From positions 1 through 22,083 of IMG/VR virus record IMGVR_UViG_3300037504_001132: DNA of 22,083 nt, one strand, 5' to 3'. Numbering within the stretch: position 1 is the stretch's first letter; every line of letters begins with the position of its first letter. A program made the position numbers and the translations under genes. The notes under the pieces were generated by a model. It worked only from the letters and a program-made list of their open reading frames with translations. It ran no database searches and was not told the DNA's origin. Below, piece after piece: positions 5,146 to 21,906 of the stretch. The stretch is from a virus.

Positions 5146-6219
5146 TTACGCTTCCTTGGCTTCCCATCTGTACTCTTCTTGGCTTCCCGGGTAGATGAAT
5201 TCTACCGTTGCGCCGAGTCTCTCTTCAAGATCGGCTTTGACGTGCTCGGTCAGCCAGTTGCAGGCGTAGGCGTTGTTTAGACCGACGCGCAGGGTGTCAT
5301 CGATGTAAGCGACGAGTTTGGCTGGCTCTAGCCATGTTTCATATTGGACTTTCTCTAATTTGGTAGCCAGGGAATGTTTGGCACCTAGCCACGTTTCTAA
5401 GGCGGTGTGCCCGTTGCCCCCGAAGGGCGTGTGAATGCTCTCGTCGGGTTCAAGCTGGGCGGACTCTGTTTCTGGTTTGTAGTCTGGATCGGTAAAATAG
5501 GCATGGTTGCTGACGGCTCGATGCGCTGGCAGCTCGCAATCTTCGCAGTGGCAATCGACGGTGTGGCCGTTGTCGCGAAGCTCCGGGGCGGGCATCCCGG
5601 CGATCATGTTGTTGATCAGCTGTCCGATCCAACTGGCCTTGCCGTCTTCGACCAGGGCCCGGTGGCTGGCTCGAATGTACTCGGGGGTGATGTGTTCCAT
5701 CTCCAGGAGTTGGAGCGTTTTGCCGTTAGGGCTGATCCCAAGCCGCTTGAGTTCGGCAACGACATCGGCGTGCTCGTCGCGTTCCCAAAGTTCCAAGGCG
5801 GTATTTTTTACCGGTTTTGGTTTATTATTACTTTTAGAGTCTATGTCCTTATCTTTAGTAGATTCGTTATTAGAATCATGTATAGAGTCTTTAATAGTAA
5901 TAATAGGGGGAACCCGGTAACATTTACCGCTTTGGCCTTCAAACCGGTCATTTTTACCGGGTTCGATTTCAACCTGGTCATTTTTACCGGGTTGGAAAAA
6001 AGCGGCTCCCTTGGGGGTGAGCACGTATCCGGCGTGGAAGTGGACCCGCTCGGCAAGCTCAAAGGTGGCCAGACAGCGCAGGTAGCGCCGCGCTGTCTTG
6101 GGTGCGATCATGAGCAGATCGGCGACGTCGCTTTCTCCCAGGGGCCGGGCTTCGACCCAGAGCAGGATGAACGCGGCGGCGGCTCGTTTGATGCTGGCGA
6201 GTATGGCGGTTTGGTTCAT
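5146..6219 (-). CDS. Replication initiator: winged helix plus DnaA-N-like domain
   Basis: 357 residues. The N-terminus (about 1-75) is a winged helix-turn-helix (DVADLLMIAPKTARRYLRCL then a wing YVLTPKG). A linker holds three 10-residue repeats beginning PGKND, PGKND and SGKCY (77-101), then a Ser/Asn/Lys-rich low-complexity stretch (110-140). The C-terminal part (about 270-345) matches the DnaA N-terminal domain (ALETWLGAKHS, TWLEPAKLVAYIDDTLRVGL, ACNWLTEHVKADLEERLG), used by initiators to contact helicase and partner proteins. The linker is encoded by iteron DNA, as in lambda O, so the protein probably binds its own gene to start replication. No strong Shine-Dalgarno precedes ATG 6219. The role is inferred from architecture. 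Confidence 0.8.
   Translation of the reverse strand: MNQTAILASIKRAAAAFILLWVEARPLGESDVADLLMIAPKTARRYLRCLATFELAERVHFHAGYVLTPKGAAFFQPGKNDQVEIEPGKNDRFEGQSGKCYRVPPIITIKDSIHDSNNESTKDKDIDSKSNNKPKPVKNTALELWERDEHADVVAELKRLGISPNGKTLQLLEMEHITPEYIRASHRALVEDGKASWIGQLINNMIAGMPAPELRDNGHTVDCHCEDCELPAHRAVSNHAYFTDPDYKPETESAQLEPDESIHTPFGGNGHTALETWLGAKHSLATKLEKVQYETWLEPAKLVAYIDDTLRVGLNNAYACNWLTEHVKADLEERLGATVEFIYPGSQEEYRWEAKEA
5799..6000. other. Putative replication origin: iterons flanking an AT-rich tract
   Basis: Three tandem 30-bp units start at 5911, 5941 and 5971. Each contains CCGGT-N7-ACCGG or a close variant and TTTTTACCGG; a fourth partial copy (GGTATTTTTTACCGG) lies at 5800-5814. Between them, 5818-5907 is strongly AT-rich with TTTATTATTAC and TTAATAGTAATAATAG. 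Everything lies inside the initiator gene. Iterons next to an AT-rich unwinding region inside an initiator gene is the layout of lambdoid origins. Confidence 0.65.
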
Positions 6220-8488: not shown

Positions 8489-8650
8489 GGTACAATTTGC
8501 AACGACAACGTGATACAATGGTGGATGACCGGCTTGCTCGGGATTGTGACTCCGCTGGGTGGGCCGGTCACCGTGCCAGGCGTTGGGGCGTCTGGCGAGT
8601 ATCAGCCGTGGGGATGTGCCAAGGCTGAGACTTTCGCTGAGAATATAAAA
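8489..8650. other. Divergent region before the integrase
   Basis: About 160 bp separate the leftward gene at 8488 from the likely integrase start at 8651. It contains an inverted repeat GACCGGC/GCCGGTC (8527-8533 with 8563-8569) and TACAAT at 8491 and 8514, but no well-spaced promoter could be assigned by eye on either strand. Confidence 0.35.
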
Positions 8651-9499
8651 ATGAAAGAATTAGAGCAGTTTCTAATCTCTAATGGTTGGAGCGCAGAAAC
8701 GCGGGGCAAATACGGCCGCGTATTGCGCAGATTGCTAAATGACATCGATGATTTAGGGGAGATGACAGCGGGGGATTTAGCAGAATGGCTAGAGGAGCAG
8801 GATTGGGGCAACTCGCAAAAATGCGTTGCTCTGACAGCGACTCGGAATTGGCTGCGCTACAAGTACGGCGAAAGCCACCCGGCGATGGAGTTGAAGATCA
8901 AGCGGCCAAGGTCGAAGCCGCAAAGAAGCTTGAGCATGGATCAGGTAAATGATCTGCTCGCCCACTTCGACACAAGTACGAAGAAAGGGCGTCGCGATCT
9001 GGCGATGTGCTCGCTGTTCTTGGATACGGGCCTGCGTGTCTCCGAAATCGTACGCCTGGAGATGCAGTACTTGGACGTAGAAGAGCGCCGACTATCTGTA
9101 ATCGTGAAGGGTGGGGAATGGGAGGAAGCGGTGTTCTCCCCCTATACTGCTAGCTGTTTGTGTTCTTGGCTTGGTTGCCGTGAGACAGTTGCAAAGCCAG
9201 GTGTTACTGAAGTGTTTATCTCGGTAGGTGGCAATACTCCTGGTACGGGAATGACTCGGGATGGTGTTGGAACGGTTGTAAAATACTGGGGTCAGAAATC
9301 GGGCGTCGGAAAGTTATCCCCTCACGATTTCCGCCGCACGTTTGCGACGATAGGCAGTAGGCTTGGAGCTTCTGAGCGTGTGTTGATGGAAGCGGGGCGA
9401 TGGAGAAGCTCGGAGATGATCAAGCGATATACATCAGGGATCGAGGCGAAGGATATGGATCCGTATTCGCCGGTGATGGCGGCGATGGACTTGCGTTGA
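8651..9499 (+). CDS. int: Tyrosine-family site-specific integrase
   Basis: 282 residues from ATG 8651. The N-terminus (1-85) is a SAM-like core-binding domain (TRGKYGRVLRRLLNDI, ALTATRNWLRYKYG). The catalytic domain has R129 (DTGLRVSEIVRL), K153 (VKGGEW), H225 and R228 (SPHDFRRTF), W251 in the H/W position and nucleophile Y260 (MIKRYTS). The frame is open back to 8510, but residues there do not look like a domain, and starting at 8651 leaves room for divergent promoters. The stop at 9497-9499 directly abuts the tRNA-like attP core. It would integrate the phage at a host tRNA-His gene. It lacks a recognisable IntI-type insertion, so it is not an integron integrase. Confidence 0.93.
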   Translation: MKELEQFLISNGWSAETRGKYGRVLRRLLNDIDDLGEMTAGDLAEWLEEQDWGNSQKCVALTATRNWLRYKYGESHPAMELKIKRPRSKPQRSLSMDQVNDLLAHFDTSTKKGRRDLAMCSLFLDTGLRVSEIVRLEMQYLDVEERRLSVIVKGGEWEEAVFSPYTASCLCSWLGCRETVAKPGVTEVFISVGGNTPGTGMTRDGVGTVVKYWGQKSGVGKLSPHDFRRTFATIGSRLGASERVLMEAGRWRSSEMIKRYTSGIEAKDMDPYSPVMAAMDLR

Positions 9500-11739: not shown

Positions 11740-11768
11740 ATTATAGTACAGGCGTGCTAAAAAGCCAA
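11740..11768 (-). promoter_or_regulatory. Promoter of the predicted small RNA
   Basis: On the - strand TTGGCT (11768-11763), a 17-bp spacer and a perfect TATAAT (11745-11740). The -35 box is the outer stem of repeat R2, so the repeat and the promoter overlap. Confidence 0.65.
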
Positions 11769-12752: not shown

Positions 12753-12813
12753 GATTTGTTTCCTTTCGCTGGAGGGGATTGCTCCCCTCCAGCCTAATTA
12801 TAGAGTCTTTGTT

Positions 12814-13161
12814 CTAAAATGCAACGGGTTGGGGGGCTGCTTCGGGTATTCGGCGCTCGCGCTCCTGGAGCGGTTGGCGCTGCCGTTTGTAGACGAACAC
12901 ATTACCGGGCTCGCGTCCGGCGTAGTAGAAGCCAAAGCGGGTAAGGTGTGGAGCGGTGGCCGTCTCGCTGGGGAGCGTCTCGCTGCTCCCGTCTGCGTAG
13001 TGTCTGACTTGCTGGTAGTCGTGGAAGATGTCGAGGGGATCTTCGTTGGGCATGATCTCGATCTTGACCAGCTCGGGCTCGTTGGCGGGCCCGTAGCGGT
13101 CCTCCATTTCCGGAGTCTTTGCCAGATCGTCGAAGTAGTCGGATTGGTGTAGGTATGTCAT
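12814..13161 (-). CDS. Hypothetical protein
   Basis: 115 residues. AGGAGG lies ahead of ATG 13161 and overlaps the previous stop. Acidic N-terminus (YFDDLAKTPEMEDRYG), a likely strand-helix core (LVKIEIMPNEDPLDIFHDYQ) and a basic C-terminal stretch (KRQRQPLQERERR). No known domain seen. Position between two other unknown genes of the leftward operon gives no clear clue to role. Confidence 0.65.
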   Translation of the reverse strand: MTYLHQSDYFDDLAKTPEMEDRYGPANEPELVKIEIMPNEDPLDIFHDYQQVRHYADGSSETLPSETATAPHLTRFGFYYAGREPGNVFVYKRQRQPLQERERRIPEAAPQPVAF

Positions 13162-13721: not shown

Positions 13722-13849
13722 GGTTTTGCGATCTCCTGCCGGTAACGAGGCCACCGGCGGGGCGCGTAAGAGTTGAATGATTTGACGGGCTTTTCGACCC
13801 ACCTCCCAGCCCCAGCCGACCAGCTGAGGTGGGGAAGCGGAGAGAGAAG

Positions 13850-14419
13850 CTAGAAAAGTTTTTGCTGCGCCGGTTGCCACTGCCAGCATTGCCGACCGGC
13901 GAACGACCCGCGCACCCACTGACCAGCCCCGGCCAGCGGAGCGGGAGAACCGGAAAAACCGCAAGCGAAGGCAAACACAGGCAAGCCAGCGGAAGCGGCA
14001 CGCCCGGCCACGGCCAAAGAGCCTTTGGAGTTTTTGGAAGCCAGGAAAAAGACAGCCTGAGCAGAGCCAGAAACCCCGGCCATGCTGCGCTTGATGAGCC
14101 TTGCTTGCAGCGGGACCTTGCGCACCGAGCCGCCAGCCGACCAGGACACAGCAGCACCGGCAGAAGCGGCGGCCTGAACAGCGGGCAGAGCAGAGCCAGA
14201 CCAGAACCCAGCCCCGGAAGCGGAGCCCACCGCGAACACGGAAAGCCGCCCAGCCTGACCGGCAGCCAACACGGAACGAATGACAGCAGCGTCGCCACCG
14301 GCGGCGCAACCAACACGAACCGACTGACCAGCTGAAAGAACCGACTGCACAACGGAAGCGACCAACGGGGAGAACTGAGAGGGCAGAGAACGAGAACCGC
14401 CGAAGTATGTTGAAGACAT
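13850..14419 (-). CDS. SLOG/DprA-like Rossmann-fold protein, adenine-depleted gene
   Basis: 189 residues. A start FGGSRSLP (6-13) and a second motif VRVGCAAGGDAAVIRSVL (34-51) match the phosphate-binding GxR and GxxxGxD loops of the SLOG (SMF/DprA-LOG) superfamily; later VFFLASKNSKGS (123-134) and GLPVFAF (145-151) fit the remaining strands. SLOG proteins bind nucleotides or nucleotide-derived signals, or DNA in DprA. The ATG at 14419 begins 2 bp after the previous stop. The coding strand has almost no A (8 of 240 bases at 14161-14400), which forces Ser, Ala, Gly, Val, Leu, Arg, Phe and opens all three frames on this strand. That this frame shows a coherent fold indicates it is the real one. 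Confidence 0.75.
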   Translation of the reverse strand: MSSTYFGGSRSLPSQFSPLVASVVQSVLSAGQSVRVGCAAGGDAAVIRSVLAAGQAGRLSVFAVGSASGAGFWSGSALPAVQAAASAGAAVSWSAGGSVRKVPLQARLIKRSMAGVSGSAQAVFFLASKNSKGSLAVAGRAASAGLPVFAFACGFSGSPAPLAGAGQWVRGSFAGRQCWQWQPAQQKLF

Positions 14420-14421
14420 GG

Positions 14422-14733
14422 CTACACCCGGGAGAACGAAGCGACCGACCGAAGCCCGCGAACCCGAACCGGCGGGCAAGCGAAGAACAAACCCCGGCGG
14501 ACCTGCACGGGAACACAGACCGAAAACAGCGCACCGGAGCGCCGGAGCGTGACTGACTGCCCCAGCCGACCAGCCCAGCGCTTGGCGAACGAAGCCGCCC
14601 GAGCACTGGAAGCAAAGCAGCAGACCAGAGACGCCTGCGCGCCTGAGCTGGCAAGCTGCAACGAGCGCAACGAGCCAGCGCGAAAAGCAGAGAAAGCGAG
14701 AGAGCGGGGAGAGGGGAAAGATTTGGAAGACAT
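14422..14733 (-). CDS. Small hypothetical protein, adenine-depleted partner of the SLOG gene
   Basis: 103 residues from ATG 14733, the first gene of this leftward operon, ending 2 bp before the SLOG start. FAKRWAGRLGQSVTLRRSGA followed by LFSVCVPV (about 49-76) looks like a helix-strand-strand unit; the rest is Arg/Ser/Leu-rich. The coding strand is strongly A-poor like that of the next gene. Both genes begin MSS after ACATTC/TTCC-poor leaders without a standard Shine-Dalgarno. The choice of frame is supported by the promoter-operator upstream and the tight junction with the SLOG gene, not by a known family. Confidence 0.55.
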   Translation of the reverse strand: MSSKSFPSPRSLAFSAFRAGSLRSLQLASSGAQASLVCCFASSARAASFAKRWAGRLGQSVTLRRSGALFSVCVPVQVRRGLFFACPPVRVRGLRSVASFSRV

Positions 14734-14756
14734 GACAACCTGCCTTTGTTGAAAGT

Positions 14757-14801
14757 AAGCTAACTTAGCTTATATTGTACCAAAACAGAGGGGGAAAGCA
14801 A
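14757..14801 (-). promoter_or_regulatory. Promoter and palindromic operator of the SLOG operon
   Basis: On the - strand TTGCTT (14801-14796), a 16-bp spacer and TACAAT (14779-14774). The perfect palindrome AAGCTAA-C-TTAGCTT (14757-14771) covers the predicted start point, as expected for a repressor operator. GTAAGCTAACTTAGC (14755-14769) matches GTAAGTTATATTAGC at 15316-15330 in 12 of 15 positions. Confidence 0.65.
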
Positions 14802-14976
14802 GAAGAAAGCCTTGCAAGTTTTGTAGCGCTTTTGTTGCAAAAAACAACGGGAAAAACCCCGGGCCACGCCGCCCCAGGAGGAGCAAAAAAACAAAAAAGA
14901 AAAACCGGAGGGGGGATATTCCGGCGGCGATTTGCTGGGGTCCCCAAGCAGCGCAATGTGAAAATGGGCGCTGGAC

Positions 14977-15095
14977 GGGAAGGCGGGCGTTTTGTGCCCA
15001 CCTTTCCCGGGCATCGCCCGTACAAACGCAGCGATCGGCACGGCGTACCAAATAAGCGAAAGGATGGGCAGGCGGGTGTTTTTGCCCACCTGACC
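14977..15095. repeat. Two similar hairpins in the 600-bp control region
   Basis: Copy A (14977-15008) and copy B (15066-15095) share GGCGGG(C/T)GTTTT...GCCCACCT and fold as stems GGGAAGG-c-GGGC/GCCC-a-CCTTTCCC and a similar CAGG-c-GGG/CCC-a-CCTG, each with a C-A mismatch at the same place and a T-rich loop. The rest of 14780-15286 shows TGGGG-T-CCCCA (palindrome near 14937-14947) but no believable gene. Confidence 0.5.
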
Positions 15096-15286
15096 AGCCT
15101 TTTGCTGTACCCTACGGCGTGGTGTGGGGCGGGCAAACAGAGCCGGGTTCACCTGCTGTTTTTTGTGCTTTCAAGTGGCTAGATGTATTTTGAGCGGGAT
15201 TCCTTCAAGTGCGTTGTAGAACAACGAGAAAGGGGCGAAGGCGTCTTTTGCCAGGTGGGTTTGCCCCGTGGTTTCGGGTTGTGTTG

Positions 15287-15334
15287 TTGACTTCTTTTGT
15301 GAGTTATGCTAGTATGTAAGTTATATTAGCTAAT
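15287..15334 (+). promoter_or_regulatory. Promoter and operator of the rightward HTH gene
   Basis: TTGACT (15287-15292), a 17-bp spacer and TAGTAT (15310-15315). The start point region carries ATTAGCTAAT (15325-15334), a perfect 10-bp palindrome, within a stretch similar to the operator at 14757-14771. The HTH product may repress itself and the divergent operon. Confidence 0.6.
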
Positions 15335-15355: not shown

Positions 15356-15568
15356 ATGGCAATCAAGAAAAAGATGGTTACGTATGAAGAGGCAGATGTG
15401 GAGCGGGATGAGTTGATGACGATTTCTGAGGCGTCTCAAGAGTTGGAGATGTCTGTTCCGGGGGTTGTGGCTGCGATCAATCGGGGGGCGTTGACGGAGT
15501 ATATCGACGAATCGCAACGGTTTCACGGTAAGCGTTTGGTCTCAAGGCAGGAAGTCGCCCGGTATTGA
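15356..15568 (+). CDS. Helix-turn-helix regulator (HTH_17/excisionase-like)
   Basis: 70 residues. AAAAGGAGTCACA ends right before ATG 15356. MTISEASQELEMSVPGVVAA (about 21-40) followed by INRGALTEYI and KRLVSRQEVARY forms a small winged-helix DNA-binding domain like that of the protein at 10951-11151. It is monocistronic on the + strand, divergent from the SLOG operon, with an operator-like palindrome in its own promoter. It is a good candidate for an immunity repressor or Cro-like switch; no larger CI-type repressor is visible in the window. Confidence 0.8.
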   Translation: MAIKKKMVTYEEADVERDELMTISEASQELEMSVPGVVAAINRGALTEYIDESQRFHGKRLVSRQEVARY

Positions 15569-15645
15569 TGATTTGTATTTTTGGCGGAACCAGCGTTCGA
15601 GCGAGTCTGATCTTCCTTTTTCATCACCGGAAATGCACAGCCTTC

Positions 15646-15675
15646 TTGACAACGTTACAAAAGATCGTCTATAAT
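15646..15675 (+). promoter_or_regulatory. Consensus promoter P1 of the late leader
   Basis: Perfect TTGACA (15646-15651), an 18-bp spacer and perfect TATAAT (15670-15675); the strongest promoter by sequence in the window. Transcripts would begin near 15682 and run into hairpins, not into an open reading frame. Confidence 0.85.
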
Positions 15676-15681
15676 CAAAAC

Positions 15682-15828
15682 ATGGTTTTGTGAGCGTCCC
15701 CGGGCACCCCCTTGCGCCTGGGGACACTCCTCCTAAAATTATTTTTGAGTTCCCTGCTCTGTGGGAACGAACACGATGAAGTGATCCCCGGTTGGTATTA
15801 GCTCTCCAGAGCCGGGGATCACGCTTTT
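15682..15828 (+). ncRNA. Predicted structured leader RNA from P1
   Basis: Three hairpins follow P1: GTCCCCGGGC/GCCTGGGGAC (15696-15705 with 15716-15725, one G-U), GTTCCC/GGGAAC near 15749-15767, and a perfect 11-bp GTGATCCCCGG/CCGGGGATCAC (15781-15791 with 15812-15822) followed by GCTTTTAAT, a plausible terminator. Between the first two lies the unpaired ACTCCTCCT (15726-15734), complementary to a strong Shine-Dalgarno. No open reading frame is present (the ATG at 15682 reaches a stop after two codons). It may be a free small RNA or an attenuated leader. Confidence 0.55.
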
Positions 15829-15865
15829 AATAGAAATATTTACAATAGCTTTACACTCATCGATG

Positions 15866-15889
15866 ATCAGCTGGCGATCCCCAGCTGAT
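15866..15889. other. Hairpin between P1 and P2 units
   Basis: A perfect 9-bp stem ATCAGCTGG/CCAGCTGAT (15866-15874 with 15881-15889) and a 6-nt loop. There is no T-run; it may be an operator or RNA processing element. Confidence 0.5.
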
Positions 15890-15923
15890 AACCTATACAA
15901 ATTAACGACAAATAGAACCTTTG

Positions 15924-15932
15924 TGCTATAAT
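15924..15932 (+). promoter_or_regulatory. Extended -10 promoter P2
   Basis: TGC directly before a perfect TATAAT (15927-15932) makes an extended -10; no good -35 is present. A transcript would begin near 15939, only about 7 nt before a strong terminator stem. Confidence 0.7.
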
Positions 15933-15945
15933 TATGCTTGTCTGA

Positions 15946-16000
15946 AAGCCCCTTCCTCCGTAAATGGCGACGGTTGTGCTAAAACGGAAGGGGCTTTTTT
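15946..16000 (+). terminator. Intrinsic terminator just after P2
   Basis: A perfect 11-bp stem AAGCCCCTTCC/GGAAGGGGCTT (15946-15956 with 15986-15996) running into TTTTTT (15995-16000). The 29-nt loop has a small inner stem CCGT/ACGG. Any P2 transcript would end at about 60 nt unless antiterminated. Confidence 0.85.
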
Positions 16001-16051
16001 GACTCCGAGCCGCTAAGGGGCCTGTTTTGGGTGTGTCCGGGAAAAAAAGAC

Positions 16052-16071
16052 GAAACGAATAGAAACGAATA
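16052..16071. repeat. Tandem 10-bp repeat GAAACGAATA
   Basis: Two exact head-to-tail copies (16052-16061, 16062-16071), with a related inverted ACGAAAT at 16087-16093, upstream of P3. It may be an activator or repressor site. Confidence 0.5.
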
Positions 16072-16105
16072 CGGGTTTTTGATAGGATTTCGTTCTGACA
16101 TGCTC

Positions 16106-16134
16106 TTGCAATAGTAGAATAGATGTGCTAGGAT
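16106..16134 (+). promoter_or_regulatory. Promoter P3 before the terminase genes
   Basis: TTGCAA (16106-16111), a 17-bp spacer and TAGGAT (16129-16134) with a TGC extended -10. A transcript would begin near 16141 and meet a terminator within about 60 nt. Confidence 0.6.
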
Positions 16135-16153
16135 AGCCTTGATTCGATTTTTG

Positions 16154-16200
16154 AGGCCGTCGCAAACGAGTTCAAATCGTGGTCTTGCGACGGCCTTTTT
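16154..16200 (+). terminator. Intrinsic terminator between P3 and the small terminase gene
   Basis: A perfect 12-bp stem AGGCCGTCGCAA/TTGCGACGGCCT (16154-16165 with 16185-16196) and TTTTT (16196-16200). Its loop contains ACGA/TCGT. It stands between P3 and the late genes, so read-through or antitermination is needed for late expression. Confidence 0.85.
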
Positions 16201-16238
16201 GATTCTCGTTTGCCCGGCCTCAACAGTGTGGAGCAGGC

Positions 16239-16697
16239 ATGGCATGTTCATTTTGCGGAGAGAAGGGCCACAATATAAGGACATGCCCGCAAGCAACGGA
16301 CAAAGACCGCAAACGAGCAAAGAAGAAAGAGAAGCGGGCAAGAGGGGGACAGCCGGGCAATACCAATGCCCTAAGGCATGGGTTTTATTCAGATCGCTTT
16401 TTGCCCGGCGAGAAGTCCGCGCTCGACTTGATCGAAGAGCATATCGACGTACATCACGAGATCACGCTTTTGCGCGTGATCTCTTTGCGCGTTATCGACC
16501 AATTATTGACCAGAGAGAAATTACAAGAATACGACCCGGAAGATGCCGCCGGTCTGCTCAATTCGGCGTCGAGCATCGCAGCCAGGATCGGCCATCTCGT
16601 CCGCTTGCAGCACCGCCTATTTGGTCAAGGCGGCGACTGGAAAGATGCGCTCGATCAGGCTTTGCGGGAAGTGGCTGAGGAGTTGGATCTTGGCTGA
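16239..16697 (+). CDS. terS: Terminase small subunit with N-terminal zinc knuckle
   Basis: 152 residues from ATG 16239 after GGAG. The N-terminus is an exact CCHC zinc knuckle CSFCGEKGHNIRTC (C3-C6-H11-C16), then a basic linker (DRKRAKKKEKRARGG) and the GGQPGNTNALRHGFYS signature common in small terminase-like proteins. The rest is helical (LLNSASSIAARIGHLVRLQH). TerS recognises the packaging site and regulates the large subunit. A retroviral-type zinc knuckle in front of it is unusual and may add nucleic-acid binding. It is the first late gene, upstream of terL. The assignment rests on the GNTNA motif and position. Confidence 0.8.
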   Translation: MACSFCGEKGHNIRTCPQATDKDRKRAKKKEKRARGGQPGNTNALRHGFYSDRFLPGEKSALDLIEEHIDVHHEITLLRVISLRVIDQLLTREKLQEYDPEDAAGLLNSASSIAARIGHLVRLQHRLFGQGGDWKDALDQALREVAEELDLG

Positions 16698-16953: not shown

Positions 16954-18480
16954 ATGACACTTGCGACCGAAACGATCAAAACGCTGCTCCTAGACCCGCC
17001 CAGGTTCATCGAACGGCTGGGGGGAATCAGGTTACGTACCTACCAGCGGGAGCCGGTCGAAGCGATCGTAGAGTCTGTGGTGGGCAACCTGGGACATACG
17101 ATTGTCGTCGAGATGGCCCGGCAGAGCGGCAAGAACGAGATTCAGGCCCAATTGGAGACCTACCTGCTATGTCTTTATCAGCAAGTGGCCGGGGAGATGG
17201 TCAAGGCCAGTCCGACGTGGAAGCCCCAGACTCAGAATGCTATGCGGCGGCTGAAAGCGAGACTGGACAAGAATCTGCTCACCCGGGAGATATGGAAAAA
17301 AGAAAGCGGGTACATATTCCGAATATCGAACTGCCTAATTGCATTCTTTTCGGGCCAACCAAAAGCGAACGTGATCGGCGCGACTGCGTCTTTGTTGCTT
17401 GTGGGCGACGAGGCGCAAGATATTTCTACTGCAAAGTGGGACAAAGACTTCGCCCCGATGGCAGCTTCGACAAATGCAACCACTGTCCTATTTGGGACGG
17501 CGTGGACGAAGAATACCTTGCTGGCACGGGAGAGACGATTTGCCCTGGAGCAGGAGAAGATTGACGGTATCAAGCGCTACTTCCGCGCCGACGCCGATGT
17601 GGTCGCGGCAGAAGTCGAAAGCTACAAACTGTACGTTGAAAAACAAATCGCCAAGCTGGGCCGGCAGCATCCGATCATCAAGACGCAGTATTTCTTGGAA
17701 GAGATCGATGCGTCCGGCGGGATGTTTCCGCCCGCTCGCCGGGCCCTGACCCGGGGCAAGCACCAGCCCTATGACGATCCCAAAGGCGATAAGCTCTATG
17801 CGATCACCATCGACGTGGCCGGCGAAGATGAGAATGCCAACGATGCCCTCCAGGAGTCTGAGCCGAGAATCGATAGCACGGCGCTGACGATTGCTGAGAT
17901 TGACTTGTCCACGGTTCAGGATGAATGGATTGGAGCGCCCACGTACCGGATCGTCAAGCGCCATTACTGGACAGGCGTCAAGAACGTGCGTCTATACGGC
18001 GAAATTCGGGCGATTTGCGAATTATGGTCCGCTGTGTACGTTTTAGTCGATGAAACCGGCATCGGGCAGCCCCTTAGAAGCTTTCTAACAGAGAAACTTC
18101 GCTTTTCGGACGTGATCGGCGTGCTTTTCACGTCAAAAACGAAGAGTGACATGGGCTATAGGATGCTTGCGGCGGTGGATATTGGCCGGATAAAGGATTA
18201 TTCGCACGATCATGATACTGACGGCCTGGCTGCACAGTTCCAAAAGGAAATGGAACATTGCACCTATGAGATCAAACCCGGCCCGGCAAAGCGGATGACC
18301 TGGGGTGTCCCGGATGGCACAAGAGACAACGACGGGAATCTGGTCCATGATGATTTGGTCATCGGTGCGGCCATGTTCACAGAATTAGACGATGAAGAGT
18401 GGCCGTCGCCGGGTGACACGGGCACAACGATTTTGCAAGGGGTTGATCCGCTTGCAGAGATTGATAAAGGTGAATGGTAA
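16954..18480 (+). CDS. terL: Terminase large subunit
   Basis: 508 residues. ATPase: Walker A-like MARQSGKNE (54-62), Walker B LLLVGDE (147-153), coupling motif LFGTAW (179-184). Nuclease: D287 in TIDVAG, D366 in LVDETGIG, and D466/D467 in HDDLVIGAAM form the RNase H-like metal site. It is the motor that cuts concatemers and drives DNA into the prohead through the portal. The ATG at 16954 follows the upstream stop by 3 bp, and its end overlaps the portal start (TAATG). Length and motif order are normal for the family. A nearby ATG at 16950 is in another frame and not used. Confidence 0.95.
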   Translation: MTLATETIKTLLLDPPRFIERLGGIRLRTYQREPVEAIVESVVGNLGHTIVVEMARQSGKNEIQAQLETYLLCLYQQVAGEMVKASPTWKPQTQNAMRRLKARLDKNLLTREIWKKESGYIFRISNCLIAFFSGQPKANVIGATASLLLVGDEAQDISTAKWDKDFAPMAASTNATTVLFGTAWTKNTLLARERRFALEQEKIDGIKRYFRADADVVAAEVESYKLYVEKQIAKLGRQHPIIKTQYFLEEIDASGGMFPPARRALTRGKHQPYDDPKGDKLYAITIDVAGEDENANDALQESEPRIDSTALTIAEIDLSTVQDEWIGAPTYRIVKRHYWTGVKNVRLYGEIRAICELWSAVYVLVDETGIGQPLRSFLTEKLRFSDVIGVLFTSKTKSDMGYRMLAAVDIGRIKDYSHDHDTDGLAAQFQKEMEHCTYEIKPGPAKRMTWGVPDGTRDNDGNLVHDDLVIGAAMFTELDDEEWPSPGDTGTTILQGVDPLAEIDKGEW

Positions 18481-19901
18481 TGAGTGACAGAAAAGGTTTA
18501 GCAGCGAGAGTCTGGTCTGGTTTGGTCGAGCGCGTATTTGGTGACGAGATTGCTCGGCGGGTTGAGTTCGCTGTCAAGGCGATTGACCGACCCCGTAATG
18601 ATATTAGCGTGAGCGCCGACGGGACCCGGAATCTGCGCGAGTTGTACCCAGCCGACCGGCGGGAACTGCTCCAGGATGCGCTTCGAGCGTGGAGAGAGAA
18701 TCCGCTTGCCAAGCGCTACGTCTCCCTGGTTGGTCAATACGTCGCCGGCGGCGGGCTGCGGGTTGAGTCTGATGACCCGGACGCTAACGAGTTCCTCCAA
18801 GAGTGGTGGACTCACCCGCTGAATCGGATGGACATTCGGGCAGTTGATTTCTGCGAAGAGCTGACCCGGGCCGGGAATCTGTTCGTTTTGCTGAATACCA
18901 ACGTCGCTGGAATGACGATACTCCGGGCTATTCCGGCTACAGATGGGCAAACCTACGGCGTCGCTGAGATCAAAACCAGAGAAGGCGACGCGGAGCAAGC
19001 GCTTGAGTTCATCGGCTTGAGCACGGCGGGGTTGTCTGACCCGCCGACGTGGCAAGCCTACGATCGCCAAAAGGATGTTCGCTCCGACAAAGGCGAGTAC
19101 AAACGCTTGATGCGGAATTATGCCATCAACCGGCCCGTAGGCGCTGCCTGGGGTGAATCTGATCTCGGCGCGGTGGCGAAATGGTTGAAACGCTATTCTG
19201 ATTGGCTGGCCCAGCGCGTCGCTCTCAACCATTGGCGCAATATCTTTGTGTGGGTGCTAACAGGAAAATTCAAGACAGAAGATGATCGCAAAGCCAGGGA
19301 AAAAGAAGTCAATGCTAATCCCCCGGCGGCGAATTCGATCTTGGTCAAAGATGAAACCGAAACCTGGGAGGTGATCAGCCCTGAACTACACGCCGGGGAC
19401 GCTGAAAAAGACGGACTGGCGATCAAGAAAATGGTTACTGCTGGGTTAGCGCTGCCGCTCCACTATTTAGCCGAGCCTGGATCTGCGACCCGGACAACGG
19501 CGGAGTCAGCCAGCGGGCCGACATTCCGGTTTTTGAGCCAGCGCCAGCGGTACTTTTTATACATCATCGAAGACTTGGCCCGGATTGCACTTCGACGGCG
19601 GTCCATGGTCGATGATGCGATAAGCGGTGACGAGCCGATCAAGGTTCACGGCGGGGATATCTCCGCTCGAGATAACAAGGCGCTATCCATATCGGCCAGC
19701 CGCATTGCGATCGCGGCTGCGAATCTGCGTGACCGTGAATTGATCGATGATACTGAGTTCCTGCGCCTTTTCTACAAGTTTACGGGCGAAGAAGGCCATG
19801 TTGACATCGATGATCTACTAGAGAAAGGCAAAGATGCCGGTCCGCCAAAGGTTTACGGGGTTGGAAAAGCGAATGTAGAAGAAACGGACGATAAGGAGTG
19901 A
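18480..19901 (+). CDS. Portal protein
   Basis: 473 residues. ATG 18480 overlaps the terL stop by one base (TAATG); an in-frame ATG at 18474 is less likely. The early region (AWRENPLAKRYVSLVGQYVA, then GGGLRVESDDPDANEFLQEW) is typical of HK97/SPP1-like portal proteins, and the wing and stem regions follow (LARIALRRRSMVDDAISGDE). The dodecameric portal forms the DNA entry vertex and docks the terminase. Position directly after terL and before the protease/capsid gene is the standard head order. The C-terminus is acidic and probably flexible. Assignment rests on position, length and pattern. Confidence 0.9.
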   Translation: MSDRKGLAARVWSGLVERVFGDEIARRVEFAVKAIDRPRNDISVSADGTRNLRELYPADRRELLQDALRAWRENPLAKRYVSLVGQYVAGGGLRVESDDPDANEFLQEWWTHPLNRMDIRAVDFCEELTRAGNLFVLLNTNVAGMTILRAIPATDGQTYGVAEIKTREGDAEQALEFIGLSTAGLSDPPTWQAYDRQKDVRSDKGEYKRLMRNYAINRPVGAAWGESDLGAVAKWLKRYSDWLAQRVALNHWRNIFVWVLTGKFKTEDDRKAREKEVNANPPAANSILVKDETETWEVISPELHAGDAEKDGLAIKKMVTAGLALPLHYLAEPGSATRTTAESASGPTFRFLSQRQRYFLYIIEDLARIALRRRSMVDDAISGDEPIKVHGGDISARDNKALSISASRIAIAAANLRDRELIDDTEFLRLFYKFTGEEGHVDIDDLLEKGKDAGPPKVYGVGKANVEETDDKE

Positions 19902-19905
19902 GTCT

Positions 19906-21906
19906 ATGCCAGATGGTCAAGTGCGTTTGACGCTGGAGTCTAATGCCCAAGTTGATAAAAATGGTAAGTTCTATGCTATTTTGATTAGCGAAGGCGAAGG
20001 CAACGGCTACAAGTTTAGCGCCGATGTGCTCAAAGAATCTGCTGATGTGTTCGAAGGGATTGAATGTTTCGTCGATCACAGTCTTTGGGGTCATTCAGTG
20101 CGCGATCTGGGCGGCGTGTTTTCTAACGCCGCTTGGGACGAAGATGAAAGCGGCCTTGGCGCTGACCTGCATACAAAAGGGCCCAGCGGCTCGATTGTGG
20201 CGGAGATGGGCCAAGAAATGCTCGGAGAAGGGCCTAAGCCTGATGTGGGCTTCTCTGCTGACGTGTTACTCAAAGTCGGCAGCGGCAAAGAAGTGTTGAA
20301 AATCTTGCGGGCTTACTCTGTCGATTTAGTTGTTAATCCTGCGCGTGGCGGCAAATTCATCAAGAGCTTGAATGCTGTCCAGGCGCGATTTAGTCCTGAG
20401 GAGGATGTACCTATGCCCAAGAAAGTTGATGTAGTAGAAGAGAAAGGGAAGAGTAAGCTCGAAGAGCAGTTGAAAGAAGATGAAGCTGCGGTCGAAGAGC
20501 TTTTGAGCTTCCAAGAGCAGCGGAAAGAGCTATCTGAGGAGAGCGCCAAGATGCGTGAACTACGCAAAGCTGGCTGTGCAAATCTCCTGACGATGGAGCT
20601 AAACGCTGCTAAATTACCGGCTGCTGCGGAGAAACGAGTCCGCAAGCAATTCGAAGGGCGGGTGTTTGAACCTGCCGAATTGACCGACGCGATTGACGAT
20701 GCCCGCGAACTCGTCGCGGAGCTTCAAGGCGGCGCGGTGGTTCAGGGTGTGCCTGGGGGTGTTGGACAGATGTTCAGTCAAGAAGATCAACTCCGGGCGG
20801 CTGTTCAAGACCTGTTCCAAGTCGAACGTGACGATGATCTGGCCCAGTTGCAAGTGCCCCGGTTGACGGGTATCCGAGAACTCTATACCGGCATGACCGG
20901 CGATCTCGAGTTCCGCGGTGGTATCTTCCCCGAGCGGGTGCGCTTCAACACCGGCGATTTCAACAACCTTGTTGCCGACGTGATGAACAAGGTGATGGTC
21001 TCCAAGTGGGACCAGCTCGGAAAAGCCGGTTACAACTGGTGGGAAAAGATCGTACACACTGAGCAGACCAAAGATTTGAAAGAGGTTGAATGGACGATCT
21101 TCGGTACGATTGCCTCCCTGCCAGAAGTCGCCAAGGGTGACGAGTACGAACCGCTGATGATCGGTGACAGCGTTGAGAAATCGGCCTACACCAAGTACGG
21201 CGGCTACGTGGGGATTGATCTGGAAGACCTGATCAACGACGATACCCGCAAGCTGCGCCAGACTCCCCGCGAGTTGGCGGCCGCCGGTATCCGCAACATC
21301 TCTGCGCTGGTCGCGGCGATCTTCACGGCCAACTCCGGCGTTGGGCCGACCCTGGAAGACACGGGCGCGTTGTTCAATGCGACTGCTGTGACTTCCGCCG
21401 GCGGACACAACAACTTGTTGACCACGGCGATCGGTTCGGATTATACGGCTTGGGATGCAATTGCCCAAGCGATGTATGACCAGCCGATGCTGGTTGCGAA
21501 CAAGGCCGGATACTACGGGACGGGCAAGAAAGTAGCTTTGAATCCCCCGTATTGTTTGGTTCCCCGTGCGCTGCAGGCGGCCGCCCAAGCGCTGTTCATC
21601 CCCCGCTGGAATGCCAATGTCGAGAGCATTCCTTCTGAAGGCGGCCCGACCTATGCCGGCGTTGTTGAGCCGATTACCGTCCCCGAGTGGACGGATTCGA
21701 ACAACTACGCTGCGGTGCAAGACCCTGACTTGATGCCTGGTATTGGCATCGCTCATGTCTTTGGTCTGAAACCGGAGATCTTCGTCGCCGGGAATGAGCT
21801 TGACCCGGCCGTGTTCATGAACGATGAAAGCCGGATCAAGGTTCGCCACTGGGTTGCCGTTGGCGTGATCGACTTCCGCGCTTTGCACAAATCGAATGTA
21901 GCGTAG
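19906..21906 (+). CDS. Prohead protease-scaffold-major capsid fusion protein
   Basis: 666 residues. The start follows AAGGAGTGAG, which overlaps the portal stop. The first 150 residues look like a prohead serine protease: H58 in CFVDHS, S138 and D140 in YSVDLVVNPARGG. A charged coiled-coil segment (about 175-235, KLEEQLKEDEAAVEELLSFQ) resembles a scaffold/delta domain. From about 300 the chain is an HK97-fold major capsid protein (LYTGMTGDLEFRGGI..., KYGGYVGIDLEDLINDDTRK). In HK97 relatives these are separate genes or a protease-MCP fusion. An internal ATG at 20413 with its own GAGGAGG would give a 497-residue scaffold-capsid product without the protease, so the full-length form may be the minor product. 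Confidence 0.9.
   Translation: MPDGQVRLTLESNAQVDKNGKFYAILISEGEGNGYKFSADVLKESADVFEGIECFVDHSLWGHSVRDLGGVFSNAAWDEDESGLGADLHTKGPSGSIVAEMGQEMLGEGPKPDVGFSADVLLKVGSGKEVLKILRAYSVDLVVNPARGGKFIKSLNAVQARFSPEEDVPMPKKVDVVEEKGKSKLEEQLKEDEAAVEELLSFQEQRKELSEESAKMRELRKAGCANLLTMELNAAKLPAAAEKRVRKQFEGRVFEPAELTDAIDDARELVAELQGGAVVQGVPGGVGQMFSQEDQLRAAVQDLFQVERDDDLAQLQVPRLTGIRELYTGMTGDLEFRGGIFPERVRFNTGDFNNLVADVMNKVMVSKWDQLGKAGYNWWEKIVHTEQTKDLKEVEWTIFGTIASLPEVAKGDEYEPLMIGDSVEKSAYTKYGGYVGIDLEDLINDDTRKLRQTPRELAAAGIRNISALVAAIFTANSGVGPTLEDTGALFNATAVTSAGGHNNLLTTAIGSDYTAWDAIAQAMYDQPMLVANKAGYYGTGKKVALNPPYCLVPRALQAAAQALFIPRWNANVESIPSEGGPTYAGVVEPITVPEWTDSNNYAAVQDPDLMPGIGIAHVFGLKPEIFVAGNELDPAVFMNDESRIKVRHWVAVGVIDFRALHKSNVA
20398..20415 (+). 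promoter_or_regulatory. Internal ribosome binding site inside the protease-capsid gene
   Basis: GAGGAGG (20398-20404), an 8-bp spacer and ATG (20413-20415), in frame with the fusion gene (169 codons in). It is as good as any start signal in the window. It falls exactly at the boundary between the protease and the scaffold segment. Confidence 0.75.

Follow-up and report, generated by a model that had tools for sequence, protein, structure and literature searches.

Putative SOS-controlled late promoters with terminator leaders in a temperate phage, most likely of Anaerolineae

Described late promoters and the locus compared

The late genes of phage lambda are preceded by the promoter PR', a short leader and the intrinsic terminator tR', with Q as the antiterminator. 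In the sib/tI element of the same phage, which lies after int, a terminator hairpin lengthens on read-through, leading to decay by RNase III. According to the part of the published account on which we draw, the LexA box AGAACTTAAGTTCG controls operon I of SaPIbov1 in Staphylococcus aureus, which includes a homologue of the small terminase that is needed for packaging (PMC11442139). The late promoter of phage GIL01 of Bacillus thuringiensis, also named P3, is repressed by host LexA through tandem LexA boxes within the promoter; there is no dedicated phage repressor, the phage protein gp7 is a partner of LexA, and gp6 is required as an activator (PMC6182141, PMC4551915).

The locus described here comes from an entire viral record of 22,083 bp (hereafter, the window), which is probably part of a larger genome. 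Upstream of its late operon lie three promoters, P1, P2 and P3, each with hairpins behind it (Table 1). The lambda PR'-tR' layout is the best anatomical description of the last unit, in which H3 stands between P3 and the small terminase gene, terS. The initial annotation had likened the array to a multiplied PR'-tR' arrangement; the likeness holds in this layout. The units are not copies of each other, and Pfam and PHROGs searches of the tested ORFs, from what is probably a genome fragment, turned up no Q-like protein. Lambda PR', moreover, is not LexA-controlled, whereas P2, and probably P3, carry a LexA operator over the −10 element; in addition, terS here follows immediately on its promoter, and there are two or three successive units. 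What the window shares with GIL01 is a LexA box in the late promoter of a temperate phage. Counterparts of gp6 and gp7 were not found among the window ORFs tested, and we know of no terminator leader in GIL01. The likeness to SaPI operon I lies in the same LexA box core and in the position of the box before a terS homologue: boxes occur directly upstream of terS in the window and in 56 of 103 relatives. SaPI, however, is a phage satellite from another phylum, and the part of the account used here describes no terminator leader (PMC11442139).

Table 1. Positions of the array, its operators and neighboring genes in the window
Feature	Coordinates	Strand	Description
Integrase	8510-9499		
Possible weak SOS element	11741-11759	−	TAGCACGCCTGTACTATAAT; in L003, TAGCACATCCGTGCTATAAT; 7.8 bits; strand read by eye
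Small HTH_17-like ORF	15356-15568	+	70 aa; Pfam HTH_17 hit (E 1.6e-4) short of the curated threshold
P1	15646-15675	+	TTGACA-18-TATAAT; consensus sigma-70 promoter, 12/12 match, without LexA box
H1	15694-15725	+	Strong hairpin after P1; no adjacent T-tract
H1b	15781-15822	+	12-bp hairpin ending in GCTTTT
P2	15905-15932	+	ACGACA-16-TATAAT, 10/12; extended −10 (TGC-TATAAT, −10 at 15927-15932)
P2 LexA (SOS) box	15913-15928	+	TAGAACCTTTGTGCTA, running into TATAAT; recA/uvrA type
H2	15945-15997	+	Terminator-like; 12-bp perfect stem, 29-nt loop; T-tract 15995-16000 (six T)
P3	16106-16134	+	TTGCAA-17-TAGGAT, read directly from the sequence
P3 probable weak LexA box	16115-16130	+	TAGAATAGATGTGCTA; 9.7 bits; unchanged in L003
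Segment 1	16153-16170	+	5' arm of H3 with a portion of its loop
H3	16154-16196	+	Terminator-like; 12-bp perfect stem, 19-nt loop; T-tract 16196-16200 (five T)
Segment 3	16205-16221	+	Complementary to segment 1; starts just after the T-tract
terS	16239-16697	+	PHROG terminase small subunit; first late-operon gene, 43 nt after H3
terL	16954-18480	+	Large terminase gene
Portal	18474-19901	+	After terL
Protease-major capsid fusion	19906-21906	+	After portal

The phage host is most likely a member of the class Anaerolineae (Chloroflexota), because the closest large-terminase relatives found in bacterial genomes lie there. A sequence search of the relative loci that we collected returned one locus, L003, that matches the array over its length; identity with it is ~96%, starting at 15587 and reaching partway into the large terminase gene. 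Its homology starts abruptly at that position, 59 bp upstream of P1, which marks a module boundary, and the small HTH_17-like gene was not found at the equivalent place in L003. With the homology ending shortly before P1, the array belongs with the packaging genes rather than the small HTH gene. Across the noncoding stretch as a whole, 4.3% of positions differ from L003, whereas the interval from P3 to terS (16105-16238) holds 0 changes where ~6 are expected. No base pair of the H2 and H3 stems differs between the two loci; with a single close relative at 96% identity, the stems of the window itself carry no covariation signal. Elsewhere in the window, ~1.5 kb without a convincing gene (~13750-15300) separates leftward genes from the small HTH gene and is similar to L003 only in part, and the minus-strand ORF at 5149-6219 codes for a protein in which a DnaA N-terminal domain (Pfam E 3.5e-8) sits close to the C-terminus, making it an unusual replication protein for a phage.

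LexA-type operators at P2 and P3

The initial annotation had placed all three promoters correctly: P1 with its full consensus match, P2 with its extended −10 and P3 with its TTGCAA and TAGGAT elements. Promoter-like sites number 10 in 3 kb, vs 2.2 in shuffles, and a scan for them found no other good promoter between H3 and terS. P1 points toward the late genes, and its unit differs from the other two in having neither a LexA box nor a clean terminator. We rejected P1 as a LexA promoter for want of a box. The idea that one unit had been duplicated into three was also rejected, as the hairpins have no common sequence and the likeness is confined to promoter elements.

The P2 promoter, TAGAACCTTTGTGCTATAAT, contains a box that reads TAGAAC-CTTT-GTGCTA and continues into TATAAT, an exact match to the composite AGAAC-N4-GTGCTATAAT. 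Of 396 genomes in the Anaerolineae class, 74 contain this composite and none contains a reversed control pattern. Among 30 composite loci that were fetched, our reading of the proteins placed 10 directly before recA and 5 before uvrA, and NCBIfam confirmed three of each among the composite loci. When recA was sampled by gene and not by pattern, an exact box was present at only 5 of 25, vs about 0.6 expected. A box of GAAC-N4-GTTC type, typically TAGAAC-N4-GTTC, also accompanies 36 of 38 lexA genes in the class, in nearly every case 35 to 120 bp upstream. The perfect palindrome TAGAAC-N4-GTTCTA, by comparison, occurs at one site in eight isolate genomes, in which recA is mostly without a box; the doubt about LexA that this raised is resolved by the lexA upstream regions together with the GTGCTATAAT form. 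A further composite hit, in genome G029, lies before a lexA gene. GTGCTA-form boxes precede lexA in locus L188 and in contig 825 of that genome, tying the form to LexA itself.

The P3 box reads TAGAAT-AGAT-GTGCTA and continues into GGAT, agreeing with the pattern only with mismatches; like that of P2, it runs into the −10 of its own promoter. A matrix built from lexA boxes only, which yields about 0.9 chance hits of ≥10 bits per window, gives 11.2 bits to P2 and 9.7 to P3, vs 14.1 for the weakest lexA box. The case for P2 is made by the recA/uvrA form of the box and by its position: its operator agrees with that of the host group, and its overlap with the −10 is that of a LexA-regulated promoter. 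On these sequence features, P2 is very likely a LexA-repressed, recA-type SOS promoter. P3 is probably a weaker one of the same kind; the evidence for it is weak, as 9.7 bits falls below any lexA box and chance hits are expected.

Related elements turned up elsewhere. The palindrome at 11741-11759, a better palindrome in L003, and a second minus-strand LexA-like palindrome at 12798-12816 (2.7 bits) run into TATAAT and face the leftward genes, a hint, at weak scores, that these genes too might be under SOS control. Genomes G398, G312 and G328 have 8 to 24 copies of the AGAAC-N4-GTGCTATAAT composite each, and at loci L364 and L365 from these genomes it precedes mutually similar ORFs with the string NFSDREN, which may be a repeated family under SOS control or a mobile cassette.

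Terminator-like hairpins and a second pairing behind H3

Our strict terminator finder, which replaced one that accepted imperfect long hairpins and was too loose, identified H2 and H3 as the only terminator-like hairpins on the plus strand of the whole 22 kb. Two such hairpins in a 630-bp region compare with a mean of 0.01 in Markov shuffles, a control that understates terminator frequency, as real phage genomes hold more than shuffles do. Both have the GC-rich stem followed directly by a T-tract that characterizes an intrinsic terminator, which H1 lacks: the T-run lies 16 nt downstream of its GC stem. P1-H1 is thus no clean terminator unit, and none of the hairpins behind P1 is a classic terminator. 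In the put-type RNA antiterminator of HK022, paired stem-loops act in cis and carry polymerase past terminators. The earlier description of each promoter as followed by a hairpin with a T-tract therefore applies to H2 and H3 and not to H1; the stems of 11 and 12 bp that it gave proved to be 12 bp in both cases, and its statement that no unit precedes an ORF does not hold for P3, as H3 sits in the terS leader. RNAs started at P2 and ended at H2 would be about 64 nt long, and those from P3 to H3 about 61 nt. Against shuffles, single units fold with z-scores of about −4 to −5, and the 571-nt array as a whole reaches −5.95. The H2 loop (15957-15985) is complementary to the H3 5' arm (16154-16165) through GCGACGG/CCGTCGC at −17.3 kcal/mol, an interaction that is marginal against shuffles (p 0.066); its pairing letters are identical in L003. 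Rfam searches at gathering and relaxed thresholds returned nothing meaningful and no family that fits, and a tRNA search returned none.

A second pairing becomes available once transcription passes H3, as segment 3, which ends just before the terS ribosome site, can pair with segment 1. The predicted folding energy is −38.1 kcal/mol for this read-through fold, vs −26.4 for the H3 terminator. Pairings of this segment 1/3 type with z ≤ −3 were found in 6 of 18 SOS units, some of them mutually related, and in 13 of the 346 other terminators compared (Fisher p = 1e-4); the latter, drawn from the same loci, are a stricter control than shuffles. H2, tested for a partner after its T-tract, has none (p 0.83). 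Similar pairings made of different letters occur in L119 (17 perfect pairs), L279, L252, L077/L274, L297 and L315; between L297 and L315, segment 2 differs and the terminator stem is shifted, and both pairings are kept. The element resembles lambda sib in turning a terminator hairpin into a longer one on read-through, and differs from it in lying before terS and not after int. As a polymerase must already have cleared the terminator before it makes segment 3, this segment cannot act in cis to save that polymerase from termination. It could serve in RNA processing, like sib, or as the target of a trans-acting RNA or in shaping the mature leader. The refolding terminator may be a ratchet, a processing site or a trans-acting RNA target that gates virion production after damage. 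That an SOS promoter combined with a terminator that refolds from its loop on read-through constitutes a new kind of phage riboregulator is a tentative suggestion, and we think it rather doubtful.

Relatives, rival explanations and a proposed mechanism

Across 1.6 Mb of terminase-relative loci, we counted 94 copies of the LexA-type palindrome, vs 6 after shuffling. Most are single copies within a prophage, just upstream of the packaging genes, and the palindrome is common to very different prophages of the class. A box agreeing at 11 or more of 12 positions lies within 900 bp upstream in 56 of 103 distinct terS upstream regions. Of these box-bearing relatives, 16 have a −10 in register with the right half-site and a further 28 have a −10 that ends 5 to 15 nt before the box, so that, as judged from sequence, 44 of 56 boxes overlap or closely follow a putative −10, which is the position of a repressor. 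The box is so close to terS in 21 relatives that no leader fits, and in these the LexA-box promoter is the promoter at terS. A terminator is not essential to the scheme, since many relatives with a box directly at terS lack one.

Where the leader is at least 60 nt long, a terminator-like hairpin is present in 11 of 47 (2.3 expected; mean folding z, −2.05), and of 88 distinct viral loci that carry the SOS composite, 11 have a strict terminator within 150 nt, vs 0.05 in shuffles; the recA and uvrA promoters examined have no strict terminator before the gene. Leaders with terminators are scattered over the TerL tree, on which leader forms that we assigned ourselves require eight changes, at least seven of them forced by well-supported branches; this does not establish repeated gain. 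Four of the 11 terminator-hairpin leaders fall in a clade with a structured leader, for which the fold may matter more than termination does. In that clade (n = 12), 19 double-change cells were counted, vs 7.8 in shuffles (0 of 500), and its leader is a candidate new RNA family.

Several observations concern leader forms. The structured leader, CCGGGTGAC..GCCCTGAC..CGCTTTGCG..CACCCGG with compensatory changes, lies between the LexA box and terS in L073, L081, L091, L111, L114, L118, L120, L121, L122, L123, L127 and L130, which form one clade of the TerL tree; no Rfam match was found among the members tested. Larger multi-branched leaders, with an outer stem that closes immediately ahead of the ribosome site of terS, are predicted from LexA box to terS in L022, L096, L031, L056, L100, L101 and L023, again without an Rfam match among those tested. 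The hairpin conserved in the L068/L077/L087 group is still present in L063, where the LexA box and −10 before it have been lost; this hairpin can thus outlast its own promoter.

We consider it unlikely that the ~60-nt hairpin RNAs from P2 and P3 are SOS-induced small RNAs that act in trans, with terS driven otherwise. The predicted RNAs are compact, the succession of SOS promoter and terminator recurs in phages, and the H2 loop complements the H3 5' arm; the H3 unit, however, sits in the terS leader, the hairpins of different phages are mostly without a common sequence, no Rfam family fits, and a further good promoter was not found between H3 and terS. That last point also counts against regarding H2 and H3 as plain insulators, which would keep transcription from P1 and from upstream out of a lethal late operon in the lysogen, their placement after SOS promoters being incidental and another, unseen promoter driving the late genes. 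P1, a consensus promoter without a LexA box that is aimed at the late genes, is in keeping with insulation, as are the terminators that some relatives also have just upstream of the box. Yet H2 and H3 each stand directly behind an SOS-type promoter of their own, and the LexA-box promoter is the terS promoter in 21 relatives, leaving insulation alone a distinctly unlikely explanation.

The palindromes might instead be operators of a phage-encoded LexA-like repressor or activator, comparable to gp6 of GIL01, and not of host LexA; in GIL01 a LexA homologue activates the late promoter (PMC6182141), and P2 and P3 score below host lexA boxes. The P2 composite, however, is the one found at host recA and uvrA, the box spans very different prophages of the class, its placement over the −10 suits a repressor, and no LexA-like protein was detected among the window ORFs tested, all of which makes a phage regulator improbable. 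We judge it very improbable that the repeats are DNA packaging sites (cos or pac, bound by the small terminase) and not RNA structures, with segments 1, 2 and 3 as inverted and direct copies of one protein-binding site. Such sites often adjoin terS, and the repeats do sit between promoter and terS; but the T-tract is on one strand only, toward terS, such repeats are absent upstream of terS in many relatives, similar units precede other genes in L252, L256 and L287, and the letters vary between phages with complementarity kept.

We favor, with a probability of about 0.62, the interpretation that the region holds SOS-controlled late promoters with terminator leaders in a temperate phage of Anaerolineae (Chloroflexota), as suggested by the LexA-type operators, their placement over the −10, the terminator-like hairpins before terS and the alternative pairing, all read from the DNA. 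In the mechanism that we infer, host LexA would sit on P2 and, more weakly, on P3 over the −10 in the lysogen and block RNA polymerase, as at the host recA and uvrA promoters. Upon DNA damage, LexA would be cleaved and both promoters would fire toward terS. By default, most transcripts would stop at H2 or H3 and yield hairpin RNAs of ~60 nt, and the packaging and head genes would be expressed only from transcripts that read through by leakage or with an antiterminator, none having been found among the ORFs tested. On read-through of H3, its 5' arm and loop could pair anew with segment 3, converting the terminator to a longer hairpin ahead of the ribosome site of terS. H2 and H3 would also shield terS from P1, which has no LexA box. 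New virions would probably need both a damage signal and passage of a stop signal.

Direct LexA control of packaging or late operons has already been documented for single cases, SaPI operon I and GIL01. Here, a LexA box precedes terS in most of the relatives examined, prophages of one little-studied class, and an RNA layer is often added between the promoter and terS. Together, these features provide a testable model of prophage induction in Anaerolineae, and, should the refolding terminator prove functional, it would represent a new design of regulatory RNA.
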